Of a DNA stretch of 64,000 nucleotides, positions 31,488-52,384 are shown in pieces. The position numbers were made by a program, and so were the translations under genes. The first letter of the stretch is position 1, and each line of letters begins with the position of its first letter. This stretch comes from Bradyrhizobium arachidis. Its GTDB lineage: Bacteria; Pseudomonadota; Alphaproteobacteria; Rhizobiales; Xanthobacteraceae. The stretch is from assembly GCF_024758505.1 (NCBI RefSeq), contig NZ_CP077970.1, forward strand, positions 1,736,001 through 1,800,000, read 5' to 3'. The notes below the pieces were generated by a model. That model was not told the origin of the DNA. It ran no database searches and saw nothing but the letters and a program-made list of their open reading frames with translations.

Positions 31488-32593
31488 GAGTCGTCCCCCT
31501 TTTTAGCTCGTGCTATGTCTTAGCGATGTTCGTGGCCGGAATTGGGAATTCCTTGTCGAATGCTTGGCGGTTTAACGTCGCACCAAACCCGCTCCTTTTC
31601 TGGCTGCCTCGCAGCGCTAGCGTCGTAGCGCGGGCCTCAACAAGCTACGGTGCTGGCTGGGTAGTGAATAAGGCCTAGCCCGCCGCTGGAGTGGCTTGAA
31701 TCTGACGTTGCGTCAGGTTGTAGGTCTTCAGACAATCGCGATCGGCTTTACGGCGACACGTGGGTCGATGTAGTCGGCTCTGAAGGAGAGTTGGCGGCCT
31801 CGCGGGGATCAAACACGTGTAAAGAGCAAATCAATGCGCGATGAAGGGCACAAGCGAGATCAGGATCCGTATGGTCGCAGCGCTCGTATCGAAGCGCCCG
31901 CACGCGGGCGGCAATGGCAGAAGGAGCATTTGAGGGCGGACGCGGCGGGTCCATTTCCTTTGGCTCCGATCCATGGCGACCTCGAAATCAAGCAGCGGAT
32001 GAGACCGATCGCGCCATCGGATCAAATAGTGCGGGTTCGTCTTCCCTCAGACCTTGGTCCGAATAAGACAGTATGATCGGCGTGGCCGTCGTTCGACAAA
32101 ACAACCCCTCTCGCAGAACTTAAGGAAAGCGGTAGTGATGGCGCAGTCTACCATTGGTAGGATCAACCGTTCACTTCACGAGACGGGCCGCTTGATGGTT
32201 TGCAACGAGTTACGCTGGAGTTCGGCGTTAAGGCCGCCGCTCGTCGCTTATAGGTGAGCTAGCGTTGCTTCTGGTGCTCGGGAGGCTCGAAGCGGAATTG
32301 GGTCGTTCAGATCAGATCCTACGAGCGAGTCAATGGGAGTGGCGGCAACCGTGGCATTCCCTGTCGCTTAATCTGGGGCACTTGCCCAGCTTCAGCCCGA
32401 TGGCCCCTTGCGCCGAATCAGGATGAGCACGTCAAAGCAGAGCTGACCGCGCGGAACAACGACGCATCTCATTGAGCAGAAGGTGAACGGATGAGGAAGC
32501 AGAAGGGTCATTGCTCGGCAGTGATCGAGAAAGCGTCTGAGCAGAACGTGATCTCCGTCAGATCCAGTGTATCTGCGCGACAAAGGAGCTAGC
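31488..32593. other. Gene-poor stretch with a MerR-type promoter motif
   Basis: No supported gene. The main feature is the MerR-type motif at 31695. The first credible gene downstream on the plus strand starts at 32594. Confidence 0.4.
31695..31730 (+). promoter_or_regulatory. MerR-type promoter/operator motif, copy 1
   Basis: CTTGAAT serves as a -35, followed by the perfect dyad CTGACG-TTG-CGTCAG (31702-31716) and GTTGTAGGT near the -10. It shares its layout with the motif at nolA (49296). Confidence 0.6.
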
Positions 32594-33013
32594 ATGAGAG
32601 CGCAAATTGCGGACCAGCTTGAGGACGGTCGCGTACGATATGGACAATTCGCCAGCGCACCGGGATCAGGTCCTTGCGGTCTCTTCATTGTGCAGGGACC
32701 CTGCGGCTGTAAACTCAAGATCGTTGGAATGCTCCACGCGGGCTGGGAACATGTCTCCGTTTCGATCCCGCGGCGCTGTCCGAATTGGCAGGAGATGTGC
32801 TTCGTCAAGGATCTATTTTGGGACGAGGAAGAGTGCGTGATGCAGCTTCATCCGCCCCGGTCCGAATACGTGAACAATAACCGATACTGTCTGCATCTCT
32901 GGAGGCCGACTAGGCAGGAAATTCCAACACCACCCTCGGGGCTCGTCGGCATAGTCGGGATTGGTCCATCCGAAGCGGCTAGGCTCGCTGCACAAATACG
33001 GGTTGTCGGATGA
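32594..33013 (+). CDS. DUF7694-like protein
   Basis: A 139-residue protein with the pattern CPNWQEMCFVKDLFWDEEE, then VMQLHPPRSEYVNN and CLHLWRP, which occurs in small proteins of phages and rhizobia (DUF7694-type). Conserved Cys, Trp and His residues are in place, but no activity is known. ATG 32594 was chosen over 32567 because AAGGAG precedes it. The N-terminal half (residues 1-60) has a separate Gly/Cys-rich pattern. It lies downstream of the MerR-type motif at 31695 but about 860 bases away. Confidence 0.7.
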   Translation: MRAQIADQLEDGRVRYGQFASAPGSGPCGLFIVQGPCGCKLKIVGMLHAGWEHVSVSIPRRCPNWQEMCFVKDLFWDEEECVMQLHPPRSEYVNNNRYCLHLWRPTRQEIPTPPSGLVGIVGIGPSEAARLAAQIRVVG

Positions 33014-33214
33014 CCCGGACCCATGGGACGTCTTGAGGGAGAACGCGCGATCAACAATTGAGACTCGTCATCCTCGTGACGGATAGGCGCTGCAGGCAGG
33101 TCCGCGGGCATGAAGCGTGGACGGTGCATCGGGTCCATTTTGTGGGCTCAGGAACCAGCGACGTGGATCCGTGACCCGCAGTCATCCGCCAGCCTTTGCT
33201 TATGATGCGGACCC

Positions 33215-33261
33215 ATCCACTGTTCGGATATGTTCTATCGATACAATCGATTTTACGAGCT
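33215..33261 (+). promoter_or_regulatory. Nod box upstream of response regulator and noeI-like gene
   Basis: A 47-bp element beginning ATCCAC and ending CAATCGATTTTACGAGCT, with GGATATGTTCTATCGATA between. It aligns over its full length with the nod box at 52385. The key NodD half sites ATC-N-A-ACAATCGATTTTAC are conserved except for one A-to-T change. Confidence 0.85.
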
Positions 33262-33318
33262 ACCGAGAACGGCGGATAAGCAAAACCACTTCGAAGAGAT
33301 GAATTCAGGCCGATCAGG

Positions 33319-33564
33319 ATGGCACCAAGAGGAATTCTCAGGTTCGCCTCGAACATCGAGTGCGGATGCCGATTAAAGCAACGTGTTTTTGGTGACTCGC
33401 GCCAAAACTTGCCAGAGGCGCGTGGTCGACGGCTGCCGGCAAACCTTCGTATAAATAGTGCAACCACTTCTATGTTGGATACCTACTTCCGTTCGATTGA
33501 ATCACCGCTTGCTCGGGTCTTAGCCTCGCGGCGAAGGCGAGAACTATCGATTGCAGGTGTCTAA
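33319..33564 (+). CDS. Possible small leader ORF downstream of nod box
   Basis: An 81-codon frame beginning 58 bases after the nod box, whose TAA overlaps the ATG of the response regulator (TAATG). The basic sequence is not recognised. The overlap suggests translational coupling, but the composition is only moderately protein-like. Confidence 0.3.
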   Translation: MAPRGILRFASNIECGCRLKQRVFGDSRQNLPEARGRRLPANLRINSATTSMLDTYFRSIESPLARVLASRRRRELSIAGV

Positions 33565-34040
33565 TGCTGCTTCAGAAGAATCGAGTGAAGTGCGGTCAGG
33601 TCGCCTCGCAAGTGCAGAAGAGGTCCCTCCTAGATCTAGTCCGAGTGGCCCACACGCTCAATATCATCTCCGTCGTGTGCGACGATCAGTCGGTTCGCGA
33701 ACCACTAATGGACATGATTATTGCAGCCGGCTGCGTGGCCGAGCTCTTCCGAAGTGCAGATGAATTCCTCAGCTCAAAAAGCGACATCAGGACGTCTTGT
33801 TTGATCGCGGACATGCAGTTGACGAGCGCAAGTGGGCTCGACTTATACGAGCAGCTCATCGCATCCGGAAAAACAATTCCCACCATCCTGCTTGTGGCTG
33901 GCCCCGACGACGACAACCGTGCGCGCGCGCTGCAAGCCGGCGTGTCACAGGTTCTGCGTAAGCCGTTCGACAAAGGCGAACTGCTTGCGTGCATAAAATC
34001 GACATTCAAAGACCGAAAGACAATTCGAGGTCGCCCTTGA
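33564..34040 (+). CDS. Receiver-only response regulator, atypical
   Basis: A 158-residue protein consisting of one CheY-like receiver domain with an N-terminal extension of about 33 residues and no output domain. The acidic pair is VCDDQSV (Asp40, Asp41), the phospho-acceptor is Asp83 in LIADMQL, and the Lys is K133 in LRKPFD. The conserved Thr/Ser at the end of beta-4 is replaced by Val (TILLVAGPD). The FixJ/NodW-like style (SADEFL, GLDLYEQL) suggests it came from a FixJ-type regulator. It is probably transcribed from the nod box at 33215, which would make it flavonoid-inducible. Partners are unknown. Confidence 0.8.
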   Translation: MLLQKNRVKCGQVASQVQKRSLLDLVRVAHTLNIISVVCDDQSVREPLMDMIIAAGCVAELFRSADEFLSSKSDIRTSCLIADMQLTSASGLDLYEQLIASGKTIPTILLVAGPDDDNRARALQAGVSQVLRKPFDKGELLACIKSTFKDRKTIRGRP

Positions 34041-34333
34041 ATATGGGCATACAAGCTTGGAGATCCCGTCGTGCGGGCTAGTTGAGCCCGACCCTGGCGG
34101 CGAATGGGATGAGAGTATTTATCATGCCGACCTCAAATCGTTTGGCAGCACGATCCCGCTTTCCAGCGCGTTGAAAGTGGACCGAACGCAGGCGCCAAAG
34201 CGTTGGCTGATGCTGGCGCGGCAGGAATCGCACGTGCATTTAACTAGGAGAGAGGTTCAATGAAGATGACGCCGCTGTTCAGAGAAGGTTTACGGACGCC
34301 GATACCGCAGTCCATGCATGAGGACTTCAGCGC

Positions 34334-34993
34334 ATGCTAGAATCGACGTCGTCTTTAGATGTGCACGAGCAGCTTGTTTCACTTCTGGAAAAGCCAAGCC
34401 CCGTTATCTTAGATATCGGCTGTAATGATGGAACCGACACAAAACGGTTTCTCGAGCTGTGCCCCGAGGCGCTGTTCTACTGTTTTGAGCCGGACCCCCG
34501 TGCTGTGGTCCGCTTTAAGAAGAACATGCATCTGGACCTCGACAAAGTGAGGCTGTTTGAGATCGCGATCAGCGATCGAAATGGAAAGATTGATTTCCAT
34601 CCAAGCAATGGGGATGGGGAGGTGGAGGAATGGGACCTCTCTGGCTCAATACGTCGGCCAAAGAACCATCTTGCTGAATATGAATGGGTTCGATTTGATC
34701 ATCCAATCTCGGTTGAAACTCGAAGGCTGGATGACTGGACCAGTGAAGCTAACGTGGACAAGATTGATTTGATTTGGATGGATGTTCAGGGAGCGGAGTC
34801 CGATGTCATCGCTGGTGGCAAACGGGCTTTGAGCAATACGCGGTTCATCTACACGGAATATAGTGATCGCGAGCTTTATGAAGGCCAGCTGTCCCTGCAC
34901 GCCATACTTGAGCTTTTACCATCGTTTGAAGTGGTAAGGCTCTATCCCCGCGAAGTGGAGGGTGATGTGTTGCTCAGGAATACGGGCTGTTAA
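34334..34993 (+). CDS. noeI: FkbM-family methyltransferase, probable NoeI
   Basis: A 219-residue class-I SAM methyltransferase of the FkbM family. The SAM-binding motif is VILDIGCNDGTD at about 24-35, with YCFEPDPRAVVRF after it (acidic residue for the ribose), and the later motif DLIWMDVQGAESDVIAGGK is typical of FkbM proteins. NoeI of rhizobia belongs to this family and adds a 2-O-methyl group to the Nod-factor fucose. Location about 1 kb downstream of a nod box in a strain carrying nodZ supports this. No other gene except the receiver protein and a weak 68-codon frame lies between. Another FkbM glycan methyltransferase remains possible. Confidence 0.7.
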   Translation: MLESTSSLDVHEQLVSLLEKPSPVILDIGCNDGTDTKRFLELCPEALFYCFEPDPRAVVRFKKNMHLDLDKVRLFEIAISDRNGKIDFHPSNGDGEVEEWDLSGSIRRPKNHLAEYEWVRFDHPISVETRRLDDWTSEANVDKIDLIWMDVQGAESDVIAGGKRALSNTRFIYTEYSDRELYEGQLSLHAILELLPSFEVVRLYPREVEGDVLLRNTGC

Positions 34994-35184
34994 CGCGGTC
35001 TCTGCTTTCTTTGCTGCGAGAGGCCGCATCACGTGACCGCGTGATGCGGCAGCGCAGTTCGGGTCAGGGTCGCTAGGGCAAGCGATGGTTATGAGGTTAT
35101 TCGTTTCGCTCTCGCGATAGCGCTTGCAGATTAGTTCGCGCGCGAGTAATTGATCAACGAAAGTTCTCGCGTTGGCAGACCGCA

Positions 35185-35523
35185 ATGAAGATGAATGATC
35201 TGAAGTCAATGAGTGTCGACGAGCTGTGGAATCTCCACGCGAAGGTGTCTGCCGCTCTAACTCAACGGATTGCGACGGAAAAGGTCATCCTCGAGGAGCG
35301 GCTGCGAACCATCGGAGCGCTCGAGAAGCCCACCCGGCCCGCCCGTGAGCGTCGGCCCTACCCGCCTGTGCGGCCAAAGTATCGAAATCCGAAGAACCCG
35401 GCGCAAACCTGGTCAGGGCGTGGGAAATTACCCAGATGGCTCGACCCGCAACTTCGTGCCGGCCGAAAGTTGGATGACTTCCTCATTGACCGACCTGCAC
35501 GTAGGCGTCGCCACAAAGCCTGA
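35185..35523 (+). CDS. H-NS-family nucleoid protein
   Basis: A 112-residue H-NS-like protein. An N-terminal helix for oligomerisation (MSVDELWNLHAKVSAALTQR) is followed by a Pro/Arg-rich linker and the C-terminal DNA-binding motif YRNPKNPAQTWSGRGKLPRW, with the core W-[ST]-GRGK-x-P-x-W. H-NS proteins silence AT-rich, foreign DNA, which suits a gene-poor island. The tail RPARRRRHKA is basic. It is intact and a single gene. Confidence 0.93.
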   Translation: MKMNDLKSMSVDELWNLHAKVSAALTQRIATEKVILEERLRTIGALEKPTRPARERRPYPPVRPKYRNPKNPAQTWSGRGKLPRWLDPQLRAGRKLDDFLIDRPARRRRHKA

Positions 35524-36016
35524 CAAGCCGGTCAGCAATTCCGATTCGACTTACTGCGACCATGCCTGTTTTGAGCTGTTGGCTCTGTAGTTGCGGCTTT
35601 CTTCATGCGTGTCTCGCAAATGCTCGATAGCCGCGTCAGAACCTTCGGCTCTGCGCTTCCGCACTTTCCAGGTCACTAATAGCTCAACCTGAGCGGCCAA
35701 CGCCGCCCAGCGAGAGCCGATGGTCTTAATTTCTAGACTTTCGACAAATCTTCTCCGCGAACGGATTTCGACATCCTCTTTTGGGGCCCCAAGGCCTTTC
35801 AGTGAAGGATTACTGATCGGCTAGACAGCGGAGCAACGTGCTACGCATCATCGGCTGAAAGAGATCTGGTCCGTCTTCTTCCATGTGTTTGTGTTCGCGA
35901 CCCAAAGCACCCGGGCGGCAAAGAAGGTGCTGTCAGGTGCGTCACAAAGTCGTTGAGGGCGATGACGGGCAATCGATGTCTTAAAGCTAGCTACGACGTT
36001 AGCCGTTTCTGAGGAT
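35524..36016. other. No gene supported
   Basis: Short frames only, with no recognisable motif. Confidence 0.4.
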
Positions 36017-36283
36017 CTATTGGATTTCGAGTACAGGTCCACATTTTGGACCGAGCAGCCTCACTCCACGAGCTATATAGCTACCGCGCGGCGGCTCCAC
36101 ATAGTCGACCCCATCGATCCAAAAGGACATATCGTCGATCGCAAGCTGCGGATTATAAGTCCACCCGGTCTGGACAGCTTTCACCACGGCGAAGGCACCA
36201 TGTGGTGAAAACGAGTCCGGGATGACGACATCAGCATCCGGCTCGCATCCTGATAGAACCTCAATAAGCTCTTTCACCTTCAT
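36017..36283 (-). CDS. Small conserved hypothetical protein
   Basis: An 88-residue protein starting MKVKELIEVLSGCEPDADVV, a pattern common in small rhizobial and phage-like proteins where a short helix is followed by acidic strand residues (L-x-x-x-DPDAEV). The remainder, FWIDGVDYVEPPRGSYIA, suggests a small beta fold. Function is unknown. The start is supported by the family-like N-terminus. Confidence 0.7.
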   Translation of the reverse strand: MKVKELIEVLSGCEPDADVVIPDSFSPHGAFAVVKAVQTGWTYNPQLAIDDMSFWIDGVDYVEPPRGSYIARGVRLLGPKCGPVLEIQ

Positions 36284-36902
36284 TTCGTAGCCTTAGGATC
36301 GCAGTTGCGAGGAGTATCCATCTATGACTTCTGTAGGATCAGTAAACCCCACGTCAAGCTGCAAGTTACCGATCCCAAACAAGCTTCGCTGCGTCCGCGC
36401 GCAGCGCCAGCTCGAGGCCCGGTCATGTCAGCGGAGCACGACGCTTTCGGGTGCCTGTCATGAGTCATCCGTGGCGAATTGATCCGGTTGCCTCCTGAAG
36501 GCTTCGCTCAGTGCCGTCGCACGAGCGCAGCTGGGCGAGACACGATTGAGCGAATGCCGATGTTCCACGAGCAGGAAGGTGGCTCATTGCCACAGATGAT
36601 TCGTTTCTGACCCGCGAGGTAATGCACATGGGCTGATGCCGCAAGGTGAGCGGCTGAGCTAAGTCGGCGGACATCATCAAATCCATCTTAGGCGACCTGG
36701 CCTAGAGTGAAGCAGTTTCGGCTGCTGCTTCTCCAGCAGCATAATGTTGCGCGCGAGAACTTTCGAGGGCTTGAACCGGACCCAGCGTCAAGTTGTAGAA
36801 TCCCAAATTAGTGTCGACACAAACAACAAGGAAGGGCCGTTTCATGATCTCCTCGCTGTTCCGCTCGGAAAGCGCAGCCGCTTTGGAAAGAGAGACCTCT
36901 CA
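36284..36902. other. Gene-poor region leading to a MerR-type motif
   Basis: Nothing recognised apart from the palindromic CTGCTGCTTCTCCAGCAG at 36722-36739 and the motif at 36770. Confidence 0.4.
36770..36805 (+). promoter_or_regulatory. MerR-type promoter/operator motif, copy 2
   Basis: CTTGAACCGGACCCAGCGTC followed by AAGTTGTAGAAT. The spacing and conserved CTTGAA, GCGTCAAGTTGTAG are shared with copies at 31695, 37875 and 49296. It lies 98 bases before the small membrane protein at 36903. Confidence 0.55.
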
Positions 36903-37082
36903 ATGATGCTGTTTCTAGTTCTGCTTCCGATTTTGTTCGGGGGGTTTGCAGCTGGCTACGCTATCCGCGCATGGCGCTCTCGAAAAAGGCGTGAGCGCTA
37001 TCGTCTGTACGGGCCTTACCTTCGGCCAACATCCCGCATTACAGAACGTCCGACTGAATTGTCTAAGCGCAGAGCATTCTGA
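36903..37082 (+). CDS. Small single-pass membrane protein
   Basis: A 59-residue protein beginning MMLFLVLLPILFGGFAAGYA, one membrane helix, followed by a very basic cytoplasmic tail (RAWRSRKRRERYRLYGPYLR). The ATG at 36903 was preferred to 36744, since the longer form would put 53 polar residues before the helix. It resembles the tiny membrane proteins frequent in Bradyrhizobium. It may be expressed from the MerR-type promoter at 36770. Confidence 0.5.
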   Translation: MMLFLVLLPILFGGFAAGYAIRAWRSRKRRERYRLYGPYLRPTSRITERPTELSKRRAF

Positions 37083-37336
37083 TGTTTTATAATAAGAGCG
37101 GGGACTTAGACCTGAGGCGGATAGCCGAAAGCTGTGCCTAGTCGGCGGTTCAGCGGATAACGCGCATGGGCGCCTTCCGGTAATCGATACCCATCTTATC
37201 GACCGTACGCGATCATGGACGCAAGGCGCTGGTGCGGACAACGAAATCCGAGCTAGCCGGTGGTCAGAGCGTTCAATGAGTGCGGGTCCTTGATGCGACA
37301 CCTCGTTCGCGAGCCTCGCGTCATCCACCTGCAGAG

Positions 37337-37366
37337 CCCCCGCCGGGTGCACCGGCGGGGGGTCTT
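37337..37366 (+). terminator. Strong GC hairpin, possible terminator
   Basis: CCCCCGCCGG, loop GTGCA, CCGGCGGGGG: a perfect 10-bp stem followed by TCTTCT rather than a full T run. Confidence 0.6.
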
Positions 37367-37874
37367 CTAAATGTCAAGGCGCCGATCGAACTCGATGCGG
37401 TCCCACGAAAAGCAAGAATCTTGATAGGAAACATATTGAGCAGGGAGAGTTCGTGAGATTGAAGGGCGACCGCCTGTTCCGGCGTCCATTCTCGATCTCA
37501 CGTGTCTTTTCGTGTGCTTGGGACCACGCGCGGAGCGGTTTTGACCAGAAAGATCCGCTCCGGCCACATGCCGTCTTGAGATTGCACCGTTGGCCCCTTG
37601 ATCATTGCCATCGTTCCACCGTGGACCAACGGAGCCGGCCCATCGCTGCTAGGCAGGCGGTTTTTCTCTGTTTGCGGGGGCGAGTCGGTGCTCAATCGCG
37701 ACAGCGGCAGAGGTATTACCAAGGTCCCGTAGGGAGGCGTCTCGAGATTGCGAGCGGAACGGCGTCGAGGGTAAGTCGTGTGGCAAATGTTCGCCAGGCT
37801 GATGCGCGCCAGTTTTGGCGAGAAGTCCGCCTGCGTTTGTGAGTGTGTGGCCTCAAACTCGTTCACTGAAATCG

Positions 37875-37910
37875 CTTGAAGCTATCGCAGCGTCAAGTTG
37901 TAGGCTTCAA
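37875..37910 (+). promoter_or_regulatory. MerR-type promoter/operator motif, copy 3
   Basis: CTTGAAGCTATCGCAGCGTC followed by AAGTTGTAGGCTTCAA. It is the nearest candidate promoter upstream of trpD (start 38230). Confidence 0.6.
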
Positions 37911-38229
37911 AAATCGATCACGATCAAAAGCGACCGTCGCGCCAATGCAGCTGCGCTCGCGGTTCGCGTGAATGCCGATGGGGGTGGCTGTTGGTGGAGA
38001 CGAGATCTGGAGCATCTTATGGTTGCCGCGCGCTTCCGTGGATGGTGCAAAATATTGCCCAGTCGTTCGTCGAGGCCAGGGCGGTGTCGGACAGGCGGAA
38101 AGCCATAAAGAGCCGAAACTGTGGTCTTCCTCGGCTCCCGCGTTGAAAAATGGGCGCCTCGCTGGACCCACCCGCTCTTGCCCAACCGTCAATGTTACCA
38201 ACACACTCCGACCGGTCTGAGTGCACGCG

Positions 38230-39243
38230 ATGGATCTCAAATTGATCATGGCCAAAGTCGCGAGCGGCGCTCTGTTGAACCACCAGGAAATGGCCTTAGC
38301 GTTCGACAGTATGATGTCGGGTCAGGCAACGCCCTCGCAAATGGGCGGGTTGCTGTTGGCGCTGAGGGTGCGTGGCGAGACAGTGGAGGAAATCACCGGC
38401 GCGGTTTCCGCGATGCGCAGCAAAATGCTGCGGGTCGATGCCCCCGCCGGATCGATTGACATTGCGGGCACCGGCGGCGACGGTTTGGGTTCGGTCAACG
38501 TCTCGACATGTGCTTCTTTCATCATCGCGGGCGCCGGCATTCCTGTCGCCAAGCATGGCAATCGCGCACTCTCCTCACGCTCGGGCTCGGCAGATGTACT
38601 GGCATCGCTCGGCGTCAAGATCGACTTGAATGCGGAAGATGTCGCTCGCTGTGTCCGGGATGCCGGCATCGGGTTCATGTTTGCGCCGACCCACCATCCG
38701 GCGCTGAAAAACGTGAGCGCAACCCGGGTCGAGCTCGCGACCCGCACAATATTTAATCTCGTCGGGCCGCTCTGCAATCCTGCGGGCGTGAAGCGGCAGA
38801 TGATCGGCGTGTTTTCGCGGAAGTGGGTGCAGCCTTTAGCCGAAGTCTGCAAGAGGCTGGGCGCGGAATCGGCGTGGGTGGTGCACGGCAGCGATGGGCT
38901 GGACGAGATCACGCTCACCGGCCCTACCTTTGTCACCGCCCTCGACAAAGGCCAGATTCGCAGCTTCGAGGTAACGCCGGAAGAGGCCGGGCTCCCCCGT
39001 TACGGAGAGGAGGGACTGAGGGGTGGGGACCCCCATACCAACGCGATTGCACTACGAAGCGTGCTCGAAGGTATGCCAGGCCCATATCGCGATGTTGCTC
39101 TCTTGAACGCGGCAGGGGCCTTTATAGTGGCCGGTCGCGCCACAACTTTGAAGGAAGGCGTGCGTCTCGGACAGGAATCACTTGGCAGTGGCGCCGCCGC
39201 CGCGCGGCTGAAGCATCTGGTCGCAGTCTCCAACGCCGAATAG
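38230..39243 (+). CDS. trpD: Anthranilate phosphoribosyltransferase
   Basis: TrpD joins anthranilate to PRPP in tryptophan synthesis. It has 337 residues with the N-terminal helical domain ([20 protein letters not shown]), the PRPP-binding GTGGDG at about 80-85, [17 protein letters not shown] for anthranilate, PTHHPALKN, and the [10 protein letters not shown] loop. All key elements are present and the length is normal. ATG 38230 was chosen; GTG 38221 is possible. trpC follows after five bases. The preceding gene-poor region carries a MerR-type motif instead of a trp attenuator. Presence inside the symbiosis island suggests a second copy besides the housekeeping trp genes. Confidence 0.94.
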
Positions 39244-39248
39244 ACAAG

Positions 39249-40049
39249 ATGACTGACCCCGACATTCTGACGAAAATTGAGACATATAAGCGCGAAGAAA
39301 TCGCAGTTGCCAGGCGCGCGCTTCCACGTGCCGAGCTCGACGCGTACGCACGGCGTGCGCCGTCTCCGCGCGGGTTTCTAAGCACAATTCGCAAAAAGCA
39401 CGCGTCGGGTGGCTATGCCCTCATCGCTGAGGTCAAAAGAGCGTCGCCGTCGAAGGGACTCATTCGCACCGACTTCCATCCGCCGTCGCTTGCCAGATCA
39501 TATGAAGCAGGGGGCGCGGCCTGTCTCTCGGTCTTGACGGACAAACCATCCTTTATGGGGGACCTTGATTTTATGGAAGCGGCGCGCGCCGCCACCAATC
39601 TGCCAGTTTTGCGCAAGGATTTCATTTTCGACACTTATCAGGTGATCGAGGCTCGCGCCCGTGGCGCCGACTGCATTCTGCTGATTATGGCGGCGCTGGA
39701 CGACGGGGCTGCCAGTGACCTCGAGGCTGCGGCCTTAGCGTACGGTATGGATGTGTTGATTGAGATCCATGACCGCTCCGAGCTTGATCGCGCCCTCAAG
39801 CTTCGCTCGCAGATGATTGGCATCAACAACCGCAACCTGCGGACGTTTGTGACAAATCTCAAGACAAGTGAAACGTTGGCACCGCTAATCCCGAAGGATC
39901 GACTGATTGTCAGCGAAAGCGGAATCTGCGCGTTCACTGATCTCGAGCGGCTCGCACGAGCCGGTATCGCAACCTTCCTCGTGGGCGAAAGTCTAATGCG
40001 TCAGTCCGACCTGACGACAGCAACTCGCGCGCTGCTTTCAAAAAACTAA
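39249..40049 (+). CDS. trpC: Indole-3-glycerol-phosphate synthase
   Basis: TrpC closes the indole ring to make indole-3-glycerol phosphate. It is a 266-residue TIM barrel with the catalytic Lys in [12 protein letters not shown], Glu/Lys in [11 protein letters not shown] and [13 protein letters not shown], the NNRNLRTF motif, and [15 protein letters not shown] with phosphate-binding [13 protein letters not shown]. The usual length is 250-270, so it is complete. It starts five bases after trpD and is likely co-translated. TrpA/TrpB and TrpF genes are not nearby; in Bradyrhizobium they lie elsewhere on the chromosome. Confidence 0.94.
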
Positions 40050-40619: not shown

Positions 40620-41120
40620 ATGAGTGAGATTCAATCAATCGAGGCGGCCGAATTTCGCCGGGCTATGCGAAATCTGGCCAGCAGCGTTGCGATCGTGGCG
40701 ACGGGAGCGGCGCTTGAACGGCGTGGGTTAACGGTGAGTTCTATTACCTCGATTTGCATAGAACCCCCTTGCTTGCTGGTTGGCATCAATACCAATTCCG
40801 GGACACACGATGCGATACTTGCGAACGGCAGGTTTGGCGTGAGCCTCCTTGCTAATGATCATCAGGACATCGCTCTGCGATTTGCCGGCCAGGATGGCTC
40901 CAAAGGTGTCCAACGGTTCGATACCGCTCCTTGGGATCAGGGGACCCTCGATGTACCGCTATTGCAAAGCGCAATCTGCGCTCTCGAATGCGTTCTACAC
41001 CACTACCACGTCGTTGGCACGCACGGGGTATTCATCGGCCGAACCGTTGCGGTGCGCCCAGGAGACGGCAGTCCGCTTATTAACTGTCGCGGCGAACTTC
41101 GAACATTAGCACGCGGTTGA
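40620..41120 (+). CDS. Flavin reductase family protein
   Basis: A 166-residue split-barrel flavin reductase (HpaC/ActVB class) that reduces FMN or FAD with NAD(P)H and hands it to a partner monooxygenase. Typical sequence includes FRRAMRNLASSVAIVAT at the N-terminus, the flavin-binding LTVSSITSICIEPPCLLVGI and FGVSLLANDHQDIALRFAG, and HVVGTHGVFIGRTVAV near the end. The length is normal. No partner monooxygenase is adjacent on this strand, but a luciferase-like monooxygenase lies 1.2 kb further on, facing it, and could be the partner. Confidence 0.9.
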   Translation: MSEIQSIEAAEFRRAMRNLASSVAIVATGAALERRGLTVSSITSICIEPPCLLVGINTNSGTHDAILANGRFGVSLLANDHQDIALRFAGQDGSKGVQRFDTAPWDQGTLDVPLLQSAICALECVLHHYHVVGTHGVFIGRTVAVRPGDGSPLINCRGELRTLARG

Positions 41121-41608
41121 GCGTTTGTCTCTTGCAGTTGCGTTTCGACACTGGTGGCTAGCCTCGTAACTGGAGAAGAGAAGTGGCTGAGCGGAGCTAT
41201 GAACGTAGAATACTCGCTCGAGAGCGACGTCACCAACGGAGCCGCTCGACTTTTGCGCGTTCTAGGCCGCCTTGAGAGATGCGCTTAGCGTCTCAGCGAG
41301 GCTTGGAGGCATCACGCTCGTTGATCTGGACGGTGCGTTGGTCCCAACCAGAAGCGCGGGTGGGGCTAGACTATAGCTAGCTGATCGCTGGTGCCCGTAA
41401 AAGCTACTGAATCGATCTCAAAGCAAATGCCACCTGCGCGCGTATCGAAAAGCGAGATCTGAATAGAGAGCCTCCATGTCCCGCGCCATCGCACAATGCG
41501 TTCACGCCCGCATGGGCTTGAAAATTCCTTATCTCGCCTCCGCCTTCAGGCCATCATCACGACCTTTCGATCGACCGAGCCAAGTTTTGCGACCGTTCCC
41601 AAACCAGA
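41121..41608. other. No gene supported
   Basis: Nothing recognised on either strand. Confidence 0.4.
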
Positions 41609-41830
41609 CTATGGCAAGCGCTGCCATTCGCCAATGCTCTCGGGAATTCCCATGTTCGATGGATCACCTGCCGAGGGCCAAGGACACGCGCCCTTCGCCA
41701 GTGCCTCGGCCGCTGCTGCCGGTGAATTGTGGTACTCTAGCGTCTCACCTGCAAATACGATCGCAAATCCCTTTGGCGTGGGGACGATTTGAGCTTTTCC
41801 TGCGTGCGTTCTAAAGACCCATTTCATCAC
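41609..41830 (-). CDS. Small conserved hypothetical protein
   Basis: A 73-residue protein whose sequence (WVFRTHAGKAQIVPTPKGFA, then EYHNSPAAAAEALAKG, then WPSAGDPSNMGIPESIGEW) matches the style of a widespread small rhizobial family with a beta-hairpin, a short helix and a conserved W-P-S...G-I-P-x-x-I-x-E-W end. No function is known. The plus-strand frames that overlap it are worse in composition. Confidence 0.7.
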   Translation of the reverse strand: MMKWVFRTHAGKAQIVPTPKGFAIVFAGETLEYHNSPAAAAEALAKGACPWPSAGDPSNMGIPESIGEWQRLP

Positions 41831-42308
41831 TTGCAGCTCTGCGAACTTCCAGCTTCAAGCCGTCGTGGCTGGCCAAGCCATAAGCCGAGCGAGAAATGCA
41901 TCCCGGCCTCCCACTGTGCAATTCGGGTGGCAAGAGTCAGCGCGCGTCGGCTTTACTGTTGGCGATTAGATCGTGCGGAGGGGTTTCGTCAATAACCAGT
42001 CCGGTGACGTTAGGCCCGGTCTCGCCAACAGCGGCCGTAACCTCGAAAGAGGCTAGCTCGAAAGGTACCGCCCCCACTGGCGTGGGAACAATTGCGCGCC
42101 GCCAAACCGGGAGCTCTGACCTCGTAGGCCGAACTCGTCAAATTCGGAACGCCGCCTAGCTTGCTGCATGCGTTTCAAGTCTAGGGGCGGGCGCAAGTCA
42201 GGGCGTGAAGTGAATCTGTGCGATGATCGAGGTAGCCGCCAGCGTTTTTAGGAGGCGTCAAAAGATATAGCAGGCAACCATTCATCGCCAGCGCCGGTAC
42301 GGTGAGCT
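41831..42308. other. No gene supported
   Basis: Downstream of the luciferase-like gene. No credible ORF was found. Confidence 0.4.
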
Positions 42309-43340
42309 TCATCTCCAGCCAGCGCCAGCGACGGACCGAATGATAATCGCCGTGTTCAATGAAGCATCCAGGGGGAGGTCACCAAATGCGAGCTGACAAA
42401 GAAGATAATTCGCACCCGCCTCTTCGAGATGATTAAGAAGAGTTTGTCGGATCGAAGCGGCCGTCCCGGCGACGCACAACTCACTCTCGATTGCTGCATC
42501 GAAGGTGAGGGGTAGGTTCGGTGGAGTGGGGATGTTGTTGCGGTCATAAAGGAACTTAAAGTTCTTGAGCCAGCGATCGTAAGCCGGCGCAGCGAGTGAA
42601 TAGGCATCTGCTTCAGAACTGCCAGCTACGATCATGCGCAGCAAGCCAAGAAACGGCGACGATTGATCGTTCGTCTCTGAGCGTATCTCTCGACGCGAGC
42701 GGTAGGCATTAGTGACCCTTCGAACAGACGATGAAGGTCCGATGCTTGCGATGTTTGCCCCAATCTCAGCGGCCCAACTTGCCGACTCGGGTTGATTTAC
42801 GGCGATCCATGTCGGGGGATGCGGTCGCTGATGAGGCGTTAGCGTCAATGGAACATCATCCAACCGGAAATGATCGCCCTCGTAGCAGAGCGAGCCGCCT
42901 CGCATGGCCTTAACTAGGATTTCGCTGGCTTCTGCATAACGGCCTGGTGCCGCGTCCGCACTGACCCCGAAATAGCCCAATTCGACTGGAAGGGAGCCGC
43001 GTCCGATGCCAAGCTCAAGTCGGCCGCCGCTCAAGTGGTCCAGCATACAGGCCTCTTCAAAAGCTCGCAGGGGGTGATGAAGGCTAAGCAGCATCACCAT
43101 CGGGCCGATGCGAAGGTGTGTTGTGCGTTGTGCGACGCTAGACAAAAACAGATTCGGTGCGGGGCTCATCCCATGCGGAGTACAGTGGTGCTCGGCCAGA
43201 TGATAAGCATAGAATCCCAGGCGATCGCATGCCTCGGCGAGTAGGAGGCGATCACTATACTGTTTGGCGACATCATGGCCGTCTGCGTCCAGGTGATCGA
43301 AGATGCCGAACGCTAGTTTTGAAGGAAGGGTACTTGTCAC
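42309..43340 (-). CDS. Luciferase-like (LLM class) flavin-dependent monooxygenase
   Basis: A 343-residue TIM-barrel monooxygenase using reduced FMN. Typical elements are FGIFDHLDADG at the N-terminus, YAYHLAEHHCTPHGMSPAPN, RIGPMVMLLSLHHPLRAFEE, LDHLSGGRLELGIGRG and PPTWIAVNQPESASWAAEIG. The substrate cannot be told. It lies 44 bases downstream of the HisC-like gene on the same strand, so they form a likely operon. The convergent flavin reductase at 40620 could supply reduced FMN. Confidence 0.9.
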   Translation of the reverse strand: MTSTLPSKLAFGIFDHLDADGHDVAKQYSDRLLLAEACDRLGFYAYHLAEHHCTPHGMSPAPNLFLSSVAQRTTHLRIGPMVMLLSLHHPLRAFEEACMLDHLSGGRLELGIGRGSLPVELGYFGVSADAAPGRYAEASEILVKAMRGGSLCYEGDHFRLDDVPLTLTPHQRPHPPTWIAVNQPESASWAAEIGANIASIGPSSSVRRVTNAYRSRREIRSETNDQSSPFLGLLRMIVAGSSEADAYSLAAPAYDRWLKNFKFLYDRNNIPTPPNLPLTFDAAIESELCVAGTAASIRQTLLNHLEEAGANYLLCQLAFGDLPLDASLNTAIIIRSVAGAGWR

Positions 43341-43384
43341 TCGATCACCTCATGTAGTGAATCTGGATAACGATTGGTTTGGGG

Positions 43385-44476
43385 TCAGATTGACGATGAA
43401 GAAATGCGACTTACGGTCGAAAGAAACGCATCCATTTGCCTTTCTGTGCCGATCGTAATGCGTATAAAGTTCTCGAGACCTTTTTCGGGGAAGAACGCAA
43501 CAAGCACGTTCTGCCTCTGCAATGTGGCCTGCCACCAGGCGCCATCGTGTCCTTCGGGCACGCGGGCTAGCAAGAAATTGGCGTGGGAAGGCAACACAGT
43601 AAACCCAAGCTTCGATAGCGCGACGCTCGTTCGCTCTCTTTCGAGCATGATCTGTCGATGGTTCTCCTCGAAAGCCGCTCGATGCGCAATGATGCTCATG
43701 CCGACCGCATGACCAATCACATTCATGTTGAAGAGGTTCTGCATGGTACGAAGCCTGCCGATAAGCTCGGGGTGACCGAAACCGAAGCCAACTCGAAGGC
43801 CCGCGGTGGCATAACTTTTTGAAAAAGTGCGCAACAGCAGAAGATTTGAATAGCGATTGACGAGACGTAGCCCGTTATCGGGCGCGAAGTCGACATACGC
43901 TTCGTCAAGTACGATCAGTCGATCCGATTGTGCTACGAGCCTTTCGATATCCGCGACCGGAACAAACGTTCCTGTCGGATTGTTCGGGTTGGCGAGCACG
44001 ACGAACTTGGCATCTCGGGCGGGGCCGAAAAGCAGTTGGTGCGTTGGTAGGGAATGGTCCTTACCCCACCCGATCTCCAGAAATTGGGCTTCGTGCAACA
44101 TGGCGAGTTTGCGGTTAAATGAAAACCCGGGCGACATCATCGCTACGACATCGCCTGGAGCGAGGAATGCGTTGTAGATAAGGCCGAGAAGTTCGGACGA
44201 ACCGTTCCCAGCGATCACCTGATCGGCGGAGAGGCCGTAAGCGGAGGCGGCCGCCTCTCGTAGGCCGACATTGTCATCCTCCGGGTACAGATAATGCCGC
44301 TCAAAGGCTGCAATTGCGGCTTCCCTGACGATTGCCGGCAACGGGAATGGGTTCTCATTCATGTTGAGTTTGACGCAATTTGCGTCAAGCTCAGGGGCAG
44401 CGGGCGGTGGAATTTCTAACTGTTTTGCCACGTGTGAAAGGGATGAGAGTGCGCTTAGCAGCCGTGCGTCTGACAT
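43385..44476 (-). CDS. HisC-like aminotransferase (fold type I)
   Basis: A 363-residue PLP aminotransferase of the histidinol-phosphate/aromatic class. LNMNENPFPLP is the substrate-recognition start, GNGSSELLGLIYNAFL the PLP phosphate region, VLANPNNPTGTFVP holds the Asn, VLDEAYVDFAP the Asp, and RTFSKSYATAGLRVGFGFG the Schiff-base Lys. ATG 44476 gives the usual length; 44539 would add 21 residues. It is probably not for histidine synthesis alone, as it stands with an LLM monooxygenase. An aromatic or phosphono amino acid is possible. Confidence 0.9.
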   Translation of the reverse strand: MSDARLLSALSSLSHVAKQLEIPPPAAPELDANCVKLNMNENPFPLPAIVREAAIAAFERHYLYPEDDNVGLREAAASAYGLSADQVIAGNGSSELLGLIYNAFLAPGDVVAMMSPGFSFNRKLAMLHEAQFLEIGWGKDHSLPTHQLLFGPARDAKFVVLANPNNPTGTFVPVADIERLVAQSDRLIVLDEAYVDFAPDNGLRLVNRYSNLLLLRTFSKSYATAGLRVGFGFGHPELIGRLRTMQNLFNMNVIGHAVGMSIIAHRAAFEENHRQIMLERERTSVALSKLGFTVLPSHANFLLARVPEGHDGAWWQATLQRQNVLVAFFPEKGLENFIRITIGTERQMDAFLSTVSRISSSSI

Positions 44477-45419
44477 GTGGTCGCTCCGTCGAAAGGCATG
44501 GGTTCTGAGCATGACGATGGTCCCATCTGAGTGAAACACTCTGTATTTGGCGCATGAGCTTCCCCACCAGCAGGCCGGCCATGTCTCTCCACAGCCGGTC
44601 GGCGCGGGGCTTCACCCGTTTTTAGAGGGTGATCCTAACAGTTGCATGAACCGCGAAGAGAAACCGCAACTTGCGTAGGGCGATCAAGTGTTGTGAAGGG
44701 TGCGTCAGTCGGATGTGCGCTCTGCCATGATCAAGCAGTGAAGAATGCGCAACTTGGGTACTGTTCAACTTCAGCGGACAGTCATCACTGACCTTGAGCA
44801 CGTCAGCGACACTTCGCTCTAGGCTGCCGTTTTCAGTCAGAATGGCGTCTGCTGTTCGGCCACGGCGACGCTCACGAACGTCCGTCGGGCGCCTGGTCAT
44901 GCTTCGAGTGGAGGGCCAATGTAGCTGCTCTGCAGCAGGCACATACAGATGCTTCCGGGCGCTTCCTCGGAAGTGATCGGGAGGCGTGACGGACGAGCGC
45001 GGCGCAAACATATGCGTTTGAGACATTCACAATCCTCGTTCGAGAGAAGGCCCCGATGCCTCCCCAGTTTTGGTAGTTTACAACTTCACCTTACGTTCGT
45101 TTCAAGCGGTTTCGACAATCATCGGAAGATGTGTCCCTCACTACAAAGTGCCGATCTCGATATGGGCGAGCTAAGGCGCCGCGCCAGACATAATCTCGTG
45201 AACAAGTCGTGGGGCGGAGCAGCCGCTAACGAACGGGGCGAACTTCAACGTCGTACTGAATCGTTCTAGTCATCGCTCAAGAGGCATTACCGGCATGATG
45301 CATTGCTTGAGACTGGCATTGTTGTTGCACCAGCAATGCAGCGGAAGCATGCAAGCGGATCCACGAGCGTGGCGACATGGCGCGAGCGGGAAGGGAATGC
45401 CGATGAAAGAGAAATTGTC
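44477..45419. other. Divergent upstream region, no gene seen
   Basis: Between the HisC-like gene and the metC remnant. A minus-strand frame at 44622-45026 is not recognised. Confidence 0.35.
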
Positions 45420-46629
45420 ATGAAGAATCAGAAAGAAAGAACGCACGAGACACGGAAACTCTACTTTGTCACCTCGGCCGCGCGCCGGCAGAACATGCTG
45501 GGATGGTGAATGTGCCGATCTACCGCGGCTCAACCATTGTTTCGGAGAGCGCGCTTGAGGCTGCCGTCTGCAAGCTAGAAGGCGGATTTCGTTCGATTCT
45601 CTTCCCATCAGGGCAATTTGCTTGTACTCACTCGGTGCTAGCTTGTCTTAAAGCGGGCGACGCTGTTCTGATCAGTGATGGCGTTTACTCGCCGTGAGAG
45701 CCTTCGCGGACAACGTTCTTGCGAGGCTGCAAATCAAGGCGGAATATTTCTGTCCAACCCAGCCGTCAGAATTGGCGGCGAAAATAGACGCAAATACACG
45801 CGCCATCTATTTGGAACCGCCATCGTCCATGACCTTCGAGGTTCAAGATTTGCCCGCACTCGCGGCGATTGCACATCAGTCGGACGCACTTGTAATCATG
45901 GACAATACGTGGGCGGCACCCCTATATTTCAGGCCGTTCGAGCACGTGTCGACATTTCGATCCAGGCTGCGACGAAGTATATTGTTGGCCATTCCGATGC
46001 GTTGCTTGGGGTTGCCACGGCGAATGAAGCGGCATGGCCCGCGCTGAAATCAACTGCGCACCATTTCGGTGAAATTGGCGGACCAGATGATATTTATCTG
46101 GCCCTCCGCGGACTTCGTACTCTAGCTTTGCGCATGAAGCGGCATTGGGAAAACGGCCTCGTTCTAGCGCAGCCTACCCATCCAGCTGTCGAGAGAGTAT
46201 TGCACCTGGCCCTTCCCAACGATCCCGGCCATGTCATTTGGAAAAAAAACGTTCTGGGCGTCAGTGGACTCTTTGGGATTGCTCCAAAGCCGATGTCGCG
46301 GCCGCAACTGTCGGTTCTCTTCAGTAGCCTGCGTATCTTTGGGATTGGTTTGTCCTGGGGCCGGTGCGAAAGTCTCGCGTTGCGAGCAGGGCCACCGAAA
46401 CGAACGGAAGCCTCGCTTGCGTTTCCTGGGACCGCTGATTCGCATACACGCGGGCATGGAAAGTCCCAGCGAGCTGATCGTGGACATGCAGAGCGCCCTG
46501 AACGCCGCCTGCGAAGCTGCAGTTGACGGCATCGTGCCTTTGGGAGGGGAGCGAGCTCGTCAGTCAATGTCAAATAGTCAGTTAGACTTGGTGTTTGATC
46601 TTAAGCGGGTTGTAATGGCGACGCCTTGA
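45420..46629 (+). pseudogene. metC: Cystathionine beta-lyase (MetC-like), multiply frameshifted
   Basis: A PLP enzyme that cleaves cystathionine to homocysteine, broken into at least five pieces. MKNQKERTHETR starts at 45420. A shift near 45480 leads to GMVNVPIYRGSTIVSESAL and LFPSGQFACTHSVLACLKAG, with about 20 residues deleted in between. A stop at 45697 is followed in another frame by SMTFEVQDLPALAAIAHQSD and MDNTWAAPLYFRPFEH. A further shift gives VDISIQAATKYIVGHSDALL, containing the PLP Lys, then LALRGLRTLALRMKRHW. The end is GPLIRIHAGMESPSELIVDM. The catalytic residues are recognisable but no product is possible. Confidence 0.88.
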
Positions 46630-47088
46630 GGCTGCCGTGCTGGCGCTCGCTCAGCGGAGCCTCGTGGGCATACGTGTTATGCAAACTGTAAGGCTCATTG
46701 CGCGGTTCTCACTAGCTCCGCGCCAGAGGATTGTCCTTGCAGGGGACTGGCACGTGCGAACGATGACAATCAAACAGAGCCGTTGATGCATGTAGATTGC
46801 CTGGCCCGAGTTCAAGGAGCGACGGCAATCTCGTCTGTCAGATATGCCTCGGGCCTAGCCGTCGAACCCAGCCACTTCTCGTGCCAGACATGACTCCATT
46901 CAATAGTTCTGTTTCGGTGGATCGCATCGGAGAGGTCATCCAGAGATCTCCCACATTTCCAGACCTCCGCATGATCCCTGATCTGCGACAATGTGTTTCG
47001 CGCGAGAAGTCGGCGTCACGAAGCGCGAATGCCCCCAAACCATCTGCGCGGCAGCGTGTTTGACGGACATGAATTGTTCGACTGCAAT
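46630..47088. other. No gene supported
   Basis: Nothing recognised between the metC remnant and the lysR gene. Confidence 0.4.
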
Positions 47089-47988
47089 TCAGTCATCGTT
47101 GGAATGATTTTCGACCCGCGTGCGAGCTACCAGATCGAGCCAGGCCCTCGCGGCATGCGATAGATAGGCACCGCGCCGCCAGATCATCGCAATACGCCAG
47201 TCCGTATCAGCTTCGTCGAGCGGCACCCGGGCGATCGAAAGATGTGTGCGTTGCTCGGCAATCATCCGTGGCAGAAAAGCGACCCCCATGCCCGCAGCCG
47301 CAAGCTCGATGATAAAGTCAATCTGGCTACTACGCGCTACGACGCGCGGCTCAAAACCGTGCCGTCGGAAAGCCTCCATAATCACGCGGTTCAATGCAAA
47401 TCCGGTTTCGAAGAGGATGAGCGGCAGCTCCCGCAAGGTCGGAATATCAAGGGATCGACACCGTGAAAGCTTGTGGTCAGCCGGTAGCAGAACAGTGAGG
47501 GGTTCGCGTTTGACGTCTTGCCATTCAAAGGCTTCCGATACTGGAAGAAGTGAGGCCGCAAGTTCGATCTCGCCCGACAGCAGAATCTCCTCCAGGCGCT
47601 CACATCCGTGCTCCACGAGCCGGATGTCGACGCCTGGATAACTTTTGCGATAGATCGCAAATAGCTTCGCGAACAGCGTTCCACTGCCAACCGGCGGCAA
47701 GCCGAGCTTGAGATTGCCGCACTTCAGGCCCCGCAGCTCGTTCAGCTCGGAAATTAGATCATCTCGTTCCGTCAGAATCCTGGTCGCGCGACGATAAACA
47801 ATCTCGCCGGCAGCGGTAAGTTTGCTGCGATGGCCGATCCGGTCAAGTAGTGGCACACCGATCTCGCCCTCCAGCTGCCTGACCGCCTTGCTCACCGTAG
47901 ACTGCGTCGCGAATACGACTTTGCCGGCCTTCGAGAATCCGCCTTGTCGTACGACCTCCACGAAAGCGCGTAGTTTCCGAAGGTCCAT
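47089..47988 (-). CDS. LysR-family transcriptional regulator
   Basis: A 299-residue LTTR with N-terminal HTH (LRAFVEVVRQGGFSKAGKVV, then TQSTVSKAVRQLEGEIGVPL) and a two-lobed ligand-binding domain (LKLGLPPVGSGTLFAKLFAI, AAAGMGVAFLPRMIAEQR). It is not of the NodD branch. The pattern is nearer to regulators of aromatic or amino-acid metabolism such as the CynR/GltC-type group. The metC remnant lies next to it but is not divergent, and no target is obvious. It is intact. Confidence 0.92.
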   Translation of the reverse strand: MDLRKLRAFVEVVRQGGFSKAGKVVFATQSTVSKAVRQLEGEIGVPLLDRIGHRSKLTAAGEIVYRRATRILTERDDLISELNELRGLKCGNLKLGLPPVGSGTLFAKLFAIYRKSYPGVDIRLVEHGCERLEEILLSGEIELAASLLPVSEAFEWQDVKREPLTVLLPADHKLSRCRSLDIPTLRELPLILFETGFALNRVIMEAFRRHGFEPRVVARSSQIDFIIELAAAGMGVAFLPRMIAEQRTHLSIARVPLDEADTDWRIAMIWRRGAYLSHAARAWLDLVARTRVENHSNDD

Positions 47989-48899
47989 GTGAATTCCAAA
48001 GCCGAATAGACGCTAGTCGATCAATTCATTCGCAGCGCTATCGGCGGTTCTCCAGGTGAGCTCGCGCCCAATCTCTGCATCGGCCCGCGAGGACTACTCT
48101 GCGGGCCGAAAATTCTATTCTTGTTTTCGCTCGTTTGGGGCAGTTCTCTGTTTTCGACACGTGGTCTTACATACTGATCATGCTCTTCCGGTTTGCGCTC
48201 CCTGCGAGCCGCGTACCGTCCAGCATGATGCTGAAGTGCCCGCAGCTCCAACGACGTTGACTACAGGCGATTCGGTTTCCGCTAGTAGCAGCATTCAGTT
48301 CGAATGCAACGGGTAATCCGGATCGGGCTTACTGGCTGAACTCTTGCGGATCGTCCCTTTCTAAAGACAAGCAATGGCCGGTCCGATCGGACCTCGCGCG
48401 ACGCCGTTGAGGCCGTGCCTAAAACGGCGGTACGAATTCGACATGGCGAAGAGGGGCGAGCGGAGTGGCCGTTCGCATGTATGCAGCCTAATATTTCAGG
48501 CAGCGACAATGCCTTGCATGCCTCAGCACGTCGGTGCTCGAAAATTGCTCATCTTCCGACTTGTTCATCGCGAGCTGGGCGATTCGGTGTGAGCGAAGTA
48601 GAAATGGGCTCGAAAGAAATTTGAAAGATTGCGCGACAAATCGCGATCTCCATACCTAAGTACGGTGCATTGGGTCGTCACCCACGCGTCCCAACCCTCG
48701 CCATGTTGGTTGCGCGGTCAAAAGCCTGTCGACCCTTTGCCCGCAACTATCACGCCAGTAGGCCGACCTGCTACATCGAGCGAGAAATCGACGCGCTCGT
48801 GACTGATGCGCCGCAGGTCTGTCTTTTTTTTGCCCTAACGCAGCCAAACGACCTTGCAAGGAGCCCAGCCGCCGGCGCGATGTTTCGACAGGAGAGACG
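47989..48899. other. No gene supported
   Basis: Upstream of lysR. Plus-strand frames here lack recognisable domains. Confidence 0.4.
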
Positions 48900-49118
48900 G
48901 TGCAAGTGTTGCAGGTACGAAGTGGTGTTTTCGATCCAGAAGACCTTTCAGTCTTGGGAAAGATCTATGATGAGGTAGTGGCGACGCTACCTGCAAGCAT
49001 GCGAACTCCCGTCAATCGAACAGAGATTGCCAAGCTTGTACTTGGACGTATCGCCGCTGGTGAGGCCGAATTGGTTCTCCTAAGAAGGCTGATGGTGGCC
49101 ATTGCGTCAGTCGCCTAG
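48900..49118 (+). CDS. Small conserved rhizobial protein
   Basis: A 72-residue protein starting at GTG (48900), with GGAGAGACGG immediately before it. The sequence FDPEDLSVLGKIYDEVVATL and NRTEIAKLVLGRIAAG fits a small helical family common in rhizobia (unnamed). It may be DNA- or protein-binding, but no motif shows it. It is followed by the MerR-type motif and nolA. Confidence 0.7.
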   Translation: MQVLQVRSGVFDPEDLSVLGKIYDEVVATLPASMRTPVNRTEIAKLVLGRIAAGEAELVLLRRLMVAIASVA

Positions 49119-49295
49119 TCTAGCGCTTGAATGCTTCTTCCTGGATACACCATGGCGACGTCGTCCGACGCCATGGCAGCGGAGTGGTCGCTTGTATCTT
49201 GCATGTCACCCAGCTCGCTAAGGCGCTCCTCGGAGTCCGAGGTTCGATGTCGCCGGCGGAAAGTTGGCAACAAAGTCTCCAGGCCGTCGAAACCG

Positions 49296-49331
49296 CTTGA
49301 ACCTCACGTGACGTTAGGTTGTAGGTTTGAA
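49296..49331 (+). promoter_or_regulatory. MerR-type promoter/operator at nolA (copy 4)
   Basis: CTTGAAC as -35, dyad ACCTCACG-TGA-CGTTAGGT between, and TGTAGGTTTGAA around the -10, ending 11 bases before the nolA ATG. The long -35/-10 spacing with a central dyad is typical of MerR-activated promoters. Confidence 0.7.
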
Positions 49332-52376: not shown

Positions 52377-52384
52377 TGTCACCT

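Follow-up and report, generated by a model that had tools for sequence, protein, structure and literature searches.

A sequence element of 31 bp recurs in a stretch of 64,000 nucleotides of the Bradyrhizobium arachidis chromosome (NZ_CP077970.1, positions 1,736,001 to 1,800,000 of the forward strand; hereafter the window, to whose numbering coordinates refer unless a chromosome, plasmid or locus is named), and one copy lies just before nolA, the gene of a MerR-type regulator. From sequence comparison, we read the element as the operator-promoter of NolA (a ‘NolA box’) and its copies as a symbiosis regulon of NolA, and give this reading a probability of about 0.86. It is carried by observations made by computation: the motif itself, its clustering in one chromosomal region, its co-occurrence with NolA among Bradyrhizobium genomes, and its position at nolA and nodD2. 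The regulator and the sites of the window are as follows.

49342..49800, plus strand: nolA, MerR-type regulator, 152 aa (Pfam MerR_1, MerR and MerR-DNA-bind; alignment).
49297..49327, plus strand: predicted NolA box/promoter of nolA, with -35 TTGAAC, a 19-bp spacer with dyad, and -10 TAGGTT (this and the next five sites from pattern searches).
37876..37906, plus strand: predicted NolA box/promoter upstream of trpD-trpC, with -10 TAGGCT.
36771..36801, plus strand: predicted NolA box/promoter, with -10 TAGAAT.
31696..31726, plus strand: predicted NolA box/promoter, with -10 TAGGTC; a DUF7694 open reading frame (ORF) lies 871 bp away.
45075..45105, minus strand: predicted NolA box upstream of hisC-LLM, with -10 TAAACT and 2 mismatches to the refined pattern; overlooked in the first-pass annotation.
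27780..27810, minus strand: predicted NolA box/promoter, with -10 TAGGAA; a 74-aa ORF begins 420 bp downstream; likewise overlooked.

The first-pass annotation, made from the letters of the window, had claimed four copies of one MerR-type promoter motif. A search with the first pattern, CTTGAA-N10-CGTYARGTTGTAG, returned exactly those on the plus strand without a mismatch (31695, 36770, 37875 and 49296). The copies are thus real, but the total is six, as the minus strand adds two diverged ones at 27783-27811 (1 mismatch) and 45078-45106 (3 mismatches). Six matches at up to 3 mismatches compare with 0.01 expected from 100 dinucleotide shuffles (largest shuffle count 1). A matrix built from the four exact sites scored these same training sites at 47-50 bits and the two diverged sites at 28.5 and 30.5 bits; the maximum over ten Markov shuffles, scanned on one strand, was 13.3 bits. 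A weaker motif-like place at 28487 (minus strand), absent from the pattern matches, scored 19.1 bits, above all ten shuffles.

Searching the whole B. arachidis genome with the first pattern gave 17 matches at up to 2 mismatches (1 in the reversed control) and 23 at up to 3 (5 in the control); two of the latter, at chromosome positions 599125 and 3528947, are distant from the rest and probably due to chance. A refined pattern was derived from 21 aligned sites, two likely chance loci (L018 and L023) being dropped from the 23. At up to 3 mismatches it returned 23 matches and none in the reversed control, all within 1,179,149-1,888,988 of 9,429,272 bp, a region of 710 kb or 7.5% of the 9.43-Mb chromosome. 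A genome search with the aligned motif was one of the checks that the first-pass annotation had named, and random occurrence across the chromosome is ruled out by this clustering of 23 of 23 matches in one region with a control of zero. The clustering was measured in the B. arachidis genome only; another genome (G216) has boxes at 2.36-2.75 Mb and also at 5.03 Mb. Because the window holds a nodD-like gene (51381-52382) and, by eye, nodB-, nodC- and carbamoyltransferase-like ORFs, we take the box-rich region to be the symbiosis region.

NolA (limit E 1e-20) and the motif (up to 2 mismatches) were searched in the same 242 Bradyrhizobium genomes. NolA was found in 128, the weakest match having an E-value of 1.2e-42 with none between that and 1e-20, and all 128 carry boxes (5-28 each, median 14, 1729 in total). 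Of the 114 genomes without NolA, 110 have no box, three have one, and one (G165) has six; the reversed control gave 3 matches over all 242 genomes. NolA may be inherited along with other symbiosis genes, and co-occurrence alone therefore does not single it out. What singles it out as the probable binder is that the box sits at nolA and follows NolA into other taxa.

All 80 named loci, which are the best of 194 found (77 from Bradyrhizobium and 3 from myxobacteria, members of another phylum), have a box immediately before nolA or its homologue, in line with the earlier proposal that the regulon includes nolA itself; the same holds for 19 of 20 further Bradyrhizobium loci, G160 being the exception. 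The three myxobacteria, Minicystis rosea, Hyalangium versicolor and Pyxidicoccus fallax (loci L164, L165 and L166), encode NolA homologues of 41-46% identity, each with TTGCACCTGACG-N3-CGTCAGGTTGTA just upstream, and the palindrome ACCTGACG-N3-CGTCAGGT is found in all three sites. Searches of their genomes at up to 3 mismatches, with one pattern position relaxed, yielded one exact box in each, at the nolA-like gene; the third genome also holds two 3-mismatch matches. In another family of the same order as Bradyrhizobium, one genome (G790; L207) has a homologue and a single box, located at that gene. A genome of the Minicystis phylum (G421; L202) encodes two homologues whose starts carry diverged dyads, and in one of these dyads both halves show matching changes. 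Homologues were found in 2 of 188 genomes of that phylum, one being the query's own, and order-wide in 4 of 397 genomes, namely three Bradyrhizobium and G790. These single-operator NolA-like genes outside Bradyrhizobium suggest horizontal transfer.

It is improbable, in our view, that some other regulator of the symbiosis region binds the motif and that NolA is merely co-inherited with it. NolA and the boxes may indeed pass on together with other symbiosis genes, and G165 with boxes but no NolA, like G160 with NolA but no box at nolA, would fit such an account; yet in the three myxobacteria and in the other family the box stands at the NolA-like gene and is the sole one (up to 1 mismatch), and its spacer and dyad are of the MerR type.

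The anatomy of the element was read from 120 distinct sites (own and other Bradyrhizobium loci), whose consensus columns are C-TTGAAT-CGCACGTAGCGTCAGGTTG-TAGGCT. The 31-bp operator is laid out as -35 TTGAAN, a 19-bp spacer and -10 TANNNT; all six window sites have the -35 and the TA of the -10, and four have its final T (absent from TAGGAA and TAGGTC). This final T, present in 99 of the 120 sites, and two A's upstream, 81 and 83% conserved, give independent support because they are not part of the search pattern. ACG/CGT half-sites form a dyad in the spacer around position 14 (partly fixed by the pattern), with its centre about 2 bases closer to the -35 than the spacer midpoint. CueR promoters likewise have an off-centre dyad nearer the -35. 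The spacer optimum is 17 bp, and 19-20 bp with a palindrome inside is typical of MerR-controlled promoters (PMC9909328). The element resembles MerR/CueR promoters in carrying its dyad inside an over-long spacer, as the first-pass annotation had supposed.

We think it very unlikely that the sites are a family of constitutive sigma-70 promoters without an activator. TTGAAT-N16-TTGTAGGCT at nolA has been given as a potential sigma-70 promoter (PMC5596368), but at 19 bp the spacer exceeds the 17-bp optimum (PMC9909328), zero sites are found in 110 of the 114 genomes without NolA, and spacer columns are common to the four sites picked without a pattern in the first pass and the myxobacterial sites, whereas plain promoters need none. 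Scarcely credible is a mobile or repetitive palindromic element (REP-like or an insertion-sequence remnant) multiplied in the region, for although there are many copies in one region and some have no clear downstream gene, flanks differ between genomes at the same gene, similarity between sites reaches no further than about 6 bp upstream and the -10, the same gene retains its copy across genomes, and ORFs in the promoter direction are three times as frequent as in the opposite direction (counted at 54 of 81 sites, 27 with short flanks being dropped).

The reading of the element as a NolA operator extends to nodD2. Every one of the 54 loci with two nodDs has a box (up to 3 mismatches) upstream of the second nodD, at a distance of 303-473 bp (median 372); these loci come from the 77 named Bradyrhizobium loci, 23 with fewer than two nodDs detected upstream of nolA being left out, and USDA110 is not among them. 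Their 27 columns average 93% identity against 41-52% in the ungapped flanks, where the 93% is partly built in by the 3-mismatch threshold and fixed-offset flanks look less conserved where indels occur. Published genetics support activation of nolA and nodD2 by NolA, a MerR-type activator in USDA110 as proposed here (PMC9927474; PMC5596368). The effect of NolA on host-genotype-dependent nodulation has been recognized for decades; the 2017 survey examined 250 bp upstream of nodD2 and found no cis-element or NolA site there and, in USDA110, no promoter (PMC5596368). A 250-bp search would miss the nodD2 box because it lies 303-473 bp away, and this distance can explain the apparent promoter absence within 250 bp of USDA110 nodD2. 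According to the same survey, Garcia 1996, Loh 1999, and Loh and Stacey 2003 take nodD2 to have a putative NolA site upstream (PMC5596368), and some form of the site may already be in print. A second NodD-like ORF of the window (302 aa; 6944-7852, minus strand) is far from nolA and has no box nearby in the 3-mismatch search.

We propose that a NolA dimer would bind the dyad AATCKNACG-N3-CGTYARRTT in the 19-bp spacer between -35 TTGAAN and -10 TANNNT and, like other MerR-family activators, would distort this over-long spacer and thereby let sigma-70 RNA polymerase engage both elements. NolA would in this way activate its own gene, nodD2 in most relatives, and further promoters among the 5-28 sites per NolA-encoding Bradyrhizobium genome. 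Direct binding, DNA distortion and ligand control are what we infer. Autoregulation is common in MerR/CueR-type regulators, which usually have few targets each; the up to 28 sites found here set NolA apart from them.

In the window NolA, the MerR winged-helix DNA-binding domain was recognized by Pfam (PF13411, E 1.8e-19), and a profile comparison of the MerR part with solved chains gave TipA as the top match (2vz4, E 5.3e-21). By alignment, this NolA is without the C-terminal TipAS/AlbA-like domain present in full-length NolA, where that part appears AlbA-like and matches TipAS weakly. NolA is like TipAL/TipAS of Streptomyces in its MerR part (TipA) and, less certainly, like AlbA, weakly also TipAS, in its C-terminal part, and the window's NolA differs from these in having no C-terminal domain. 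The internal starts of NolA2 and NolA3 are reminiscent of TipAS. It is from these starts that NolA2 and NolA3 arise (PMC5596368), and genistein is listed as a NolA signal (PMC9909328). Because the C-terminal domain appears to resemble the ligand-binding domains of AlbA/TipAS, activation by full-length NolA is, by analogy, probably switched by a small molecule; the window NolA may act without this domain. More tentatively, at somewhat less than even odds, NolA could descend from a TipAL-like ligand-sensing ancestor with a single self-operator, as in the three myxobacteria and the one other family of the order, the operator having spread to 5-28 Bradyrhizobium promoters and so turned NolA into a small-molecule-tuned master switch of the bacterium's chemical dealings with its plant host. 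The proposed set comprises nodD2, trpDC (perhaps trpEG) for tryptophan supply, rtx for rhizobitoxine, a nonribosomal peptide synthetase (NRPS) condensation-domain protein, an N-monooxygenase, peptide uptake and secreted proteins.

Published expression data from a relative bear on the operon behind the minus-strand box at 45075..45105:

43385..44539, minus strand: hisC-like aminotransferase, first gene of a putative NolA target operon, its ORF 566 bp downstream of the box (Pfam, TIGR01141).
42309..43340, minus strand: LLM-class (luciferase-like) oxidoreductase (Pfam), in the same place as X268_RS37710 of CCBAU53363.

On plasmid NZ_CP022220.1 of B. guangxiense CCBAU53363, a 2-mismatch box ends 11 bp before the start of nolA (X268_RS37740) and another (678897-678923) precedes hisC (X268_RS37715) and the LLM oxidoreductase X268_RS37710. 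The latter is among 11 genes changed in a nolA deletion of this strain, 10 of them lowered (PMC9927474), so that published genetics support its nolA dependence and the window box near 45079 (minus strand), missed in the first pass, is the site with expression support in a relative. The hisC-LLM pair also stands behind a box downstream of nolA in many relatives, for example on plasmid p187_1; this downstream box (box 3) was found in 69 of 77 loci, with livK, hisC and/or LLM next in 67 of the 69.

Several points weigh against NolA as the direct reader of the boxes. In G165, which has six boxes, the NolA search gave nothing at E 1e-20 or better, and the closest MerR protein there is 31% identical; nolA may have been lost or be missing there, or the box may have another reader. 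Conversely, the most diverged Bradyrhizobium NolA (G160, 55% identity; locus L076) has no box at its start, in a genome with eight (up to 2 mismatches). Bradyrhizobium loci are kin, not independent, and conservation of columns inside the search pattern is partly by construction. Half-site covariation over the 120 sites showed complementarity about equal to the column-based expectation, and 27 of the 54 boxes counted have no ORF of at least 150 aa within 500 bp. Only 11 genes depend on nolA in CCBAU53363, and nolA and nodD1 were reported to be without mutual regulation (PMC9927474). Of the four such genes that are named (X268_RS37710, virK, nopP and the transposase X268_RS35990), only X268_RS37710 was placed behind a box, nopP being not located and the transposase not examined. 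As a direct target virK was rejected: in CCBAU53363 it lies at 306564-306845 and the six plasmid boxes at 469684-700683, and in the B. arachidis genome it lies on the minus strand at 1243597, with the nearest listed box on the plus strand at 1239106. In the gel-shift assay reported, NolA did not shift the nopP promoter (PMC9927474). With no nearby box and no gel shift, respectively, virK and nopP would be indirect targets.

Within the open-access PMC literature, to which the search was confined (1996-2003 subscription papers being outside its scope), we found no defined NolA box or motif-based NolA regulon. Excerpts of the main text of the 2023 USDA110 module paper contain neither NolA nor CTTGAA/TTGTAG (PMC10454721), and those of PMC5596368 report no nod box at nolA. 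The potential sigma-70 promoter seen there at nolA is here one of 5-28 sites per genome. The motif definition and target list are new within the literature searched; the kind of system, a MerR activator regulon, is already known. A defined 31-bp operator makes direct NolA targets predictable from sequence, and it links NolA to trpDC, hisC-LLM, SPASM and rhizobitoxine genes.

The remaining candidate targets of the window are listed here.

38221..40049, plus strand: putative NolA target operon of trpD (38221-39243) and the ORF 38823-40049, whose residues 149-404 are trpC (IGPS) (Pfam, NCBIfam TIGR01245).
36903..37082, plus strand: small membrane-protein ORF (inner ATG of ORF 36744-37082), a candidate by its position downstream of the 36771 box.
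49942..51051, plus strand: LivK-like periplasmic binding protein downstream of nolA (Pfam), whose homologue has its own box in many relatives.

Genes recurring behind the 81 sites of six genomes are nolA (6 genomes), trpD (5), LivK-like (5) and nodD2 (4, a fifth member, in G216, being a 171-aa piece), together with a small-protein cluster (5) and a protein of about 95 aa (5), followed in two or three by an AMP-ligase-type ORF (Pfam for one). Recurrence of the box ahead of trpD (5 of 6 genomes) supports the suggestion of the first-pass annotation that trpDC is a NolA target. Its other suggestions fared less well: the small membrane protein at 36903 does stand behind a box, but nothing beyond position speaks for it, and Pfam gave no match for 36906-37079; the DUF7694 gene (ORF 32567-33013), which begins 871 bp from the 31696 box, found no support.

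A SPASM gene has a box in the B. arachidis genome, G216 and p187_1. Two genomes, G002 and G158 (loci L172 and L194), have a box upstream of an rtxA-rtxC-like operon: the box starts 430 and 382 bp, respectively, before a gene that fuses aminotransferase and O-acetylhomoserine-sulfhydrylase, and a fatty-acid-desaturase gene comes next, the same layout as rtxA-rtxC of rhizobitoxine synthesis (PMC3222319). Beyond nolA, nodD2, trpD, hisC-LLM, LivK, SPASM and rtx, each target comes from a single genome and counts as a lead. In the B. arachidis genome, single boxes precede genes for a prolyl oligopeptidase (3-mismatch box), a family-5 solute-binding protein and a lysine/ornithine-monooxygenase-type protein, and boxes lie further from those for the NRPS condensation-domain protein (933 bp) and a biotin carboxylase (991 bp). 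Its trpEG fusion (L060:7523-9703, near 1.474 Mb) has a 2-mismatch box with the ORF 289 bp after the box start; no second instance occurred in the six-genome set, and it is kept as a lead. If true, the trpEG and trpD-trpC boxes would place several tryptophan genes under NolA. For several boxes on p187_1, whose gene table is incomplete, the nearest annotated gene is more than 500 bp away. Loci L057, L065 and L187 hold similar small secreted-looking proteins, with the ORF 22-65 bp after the box start.

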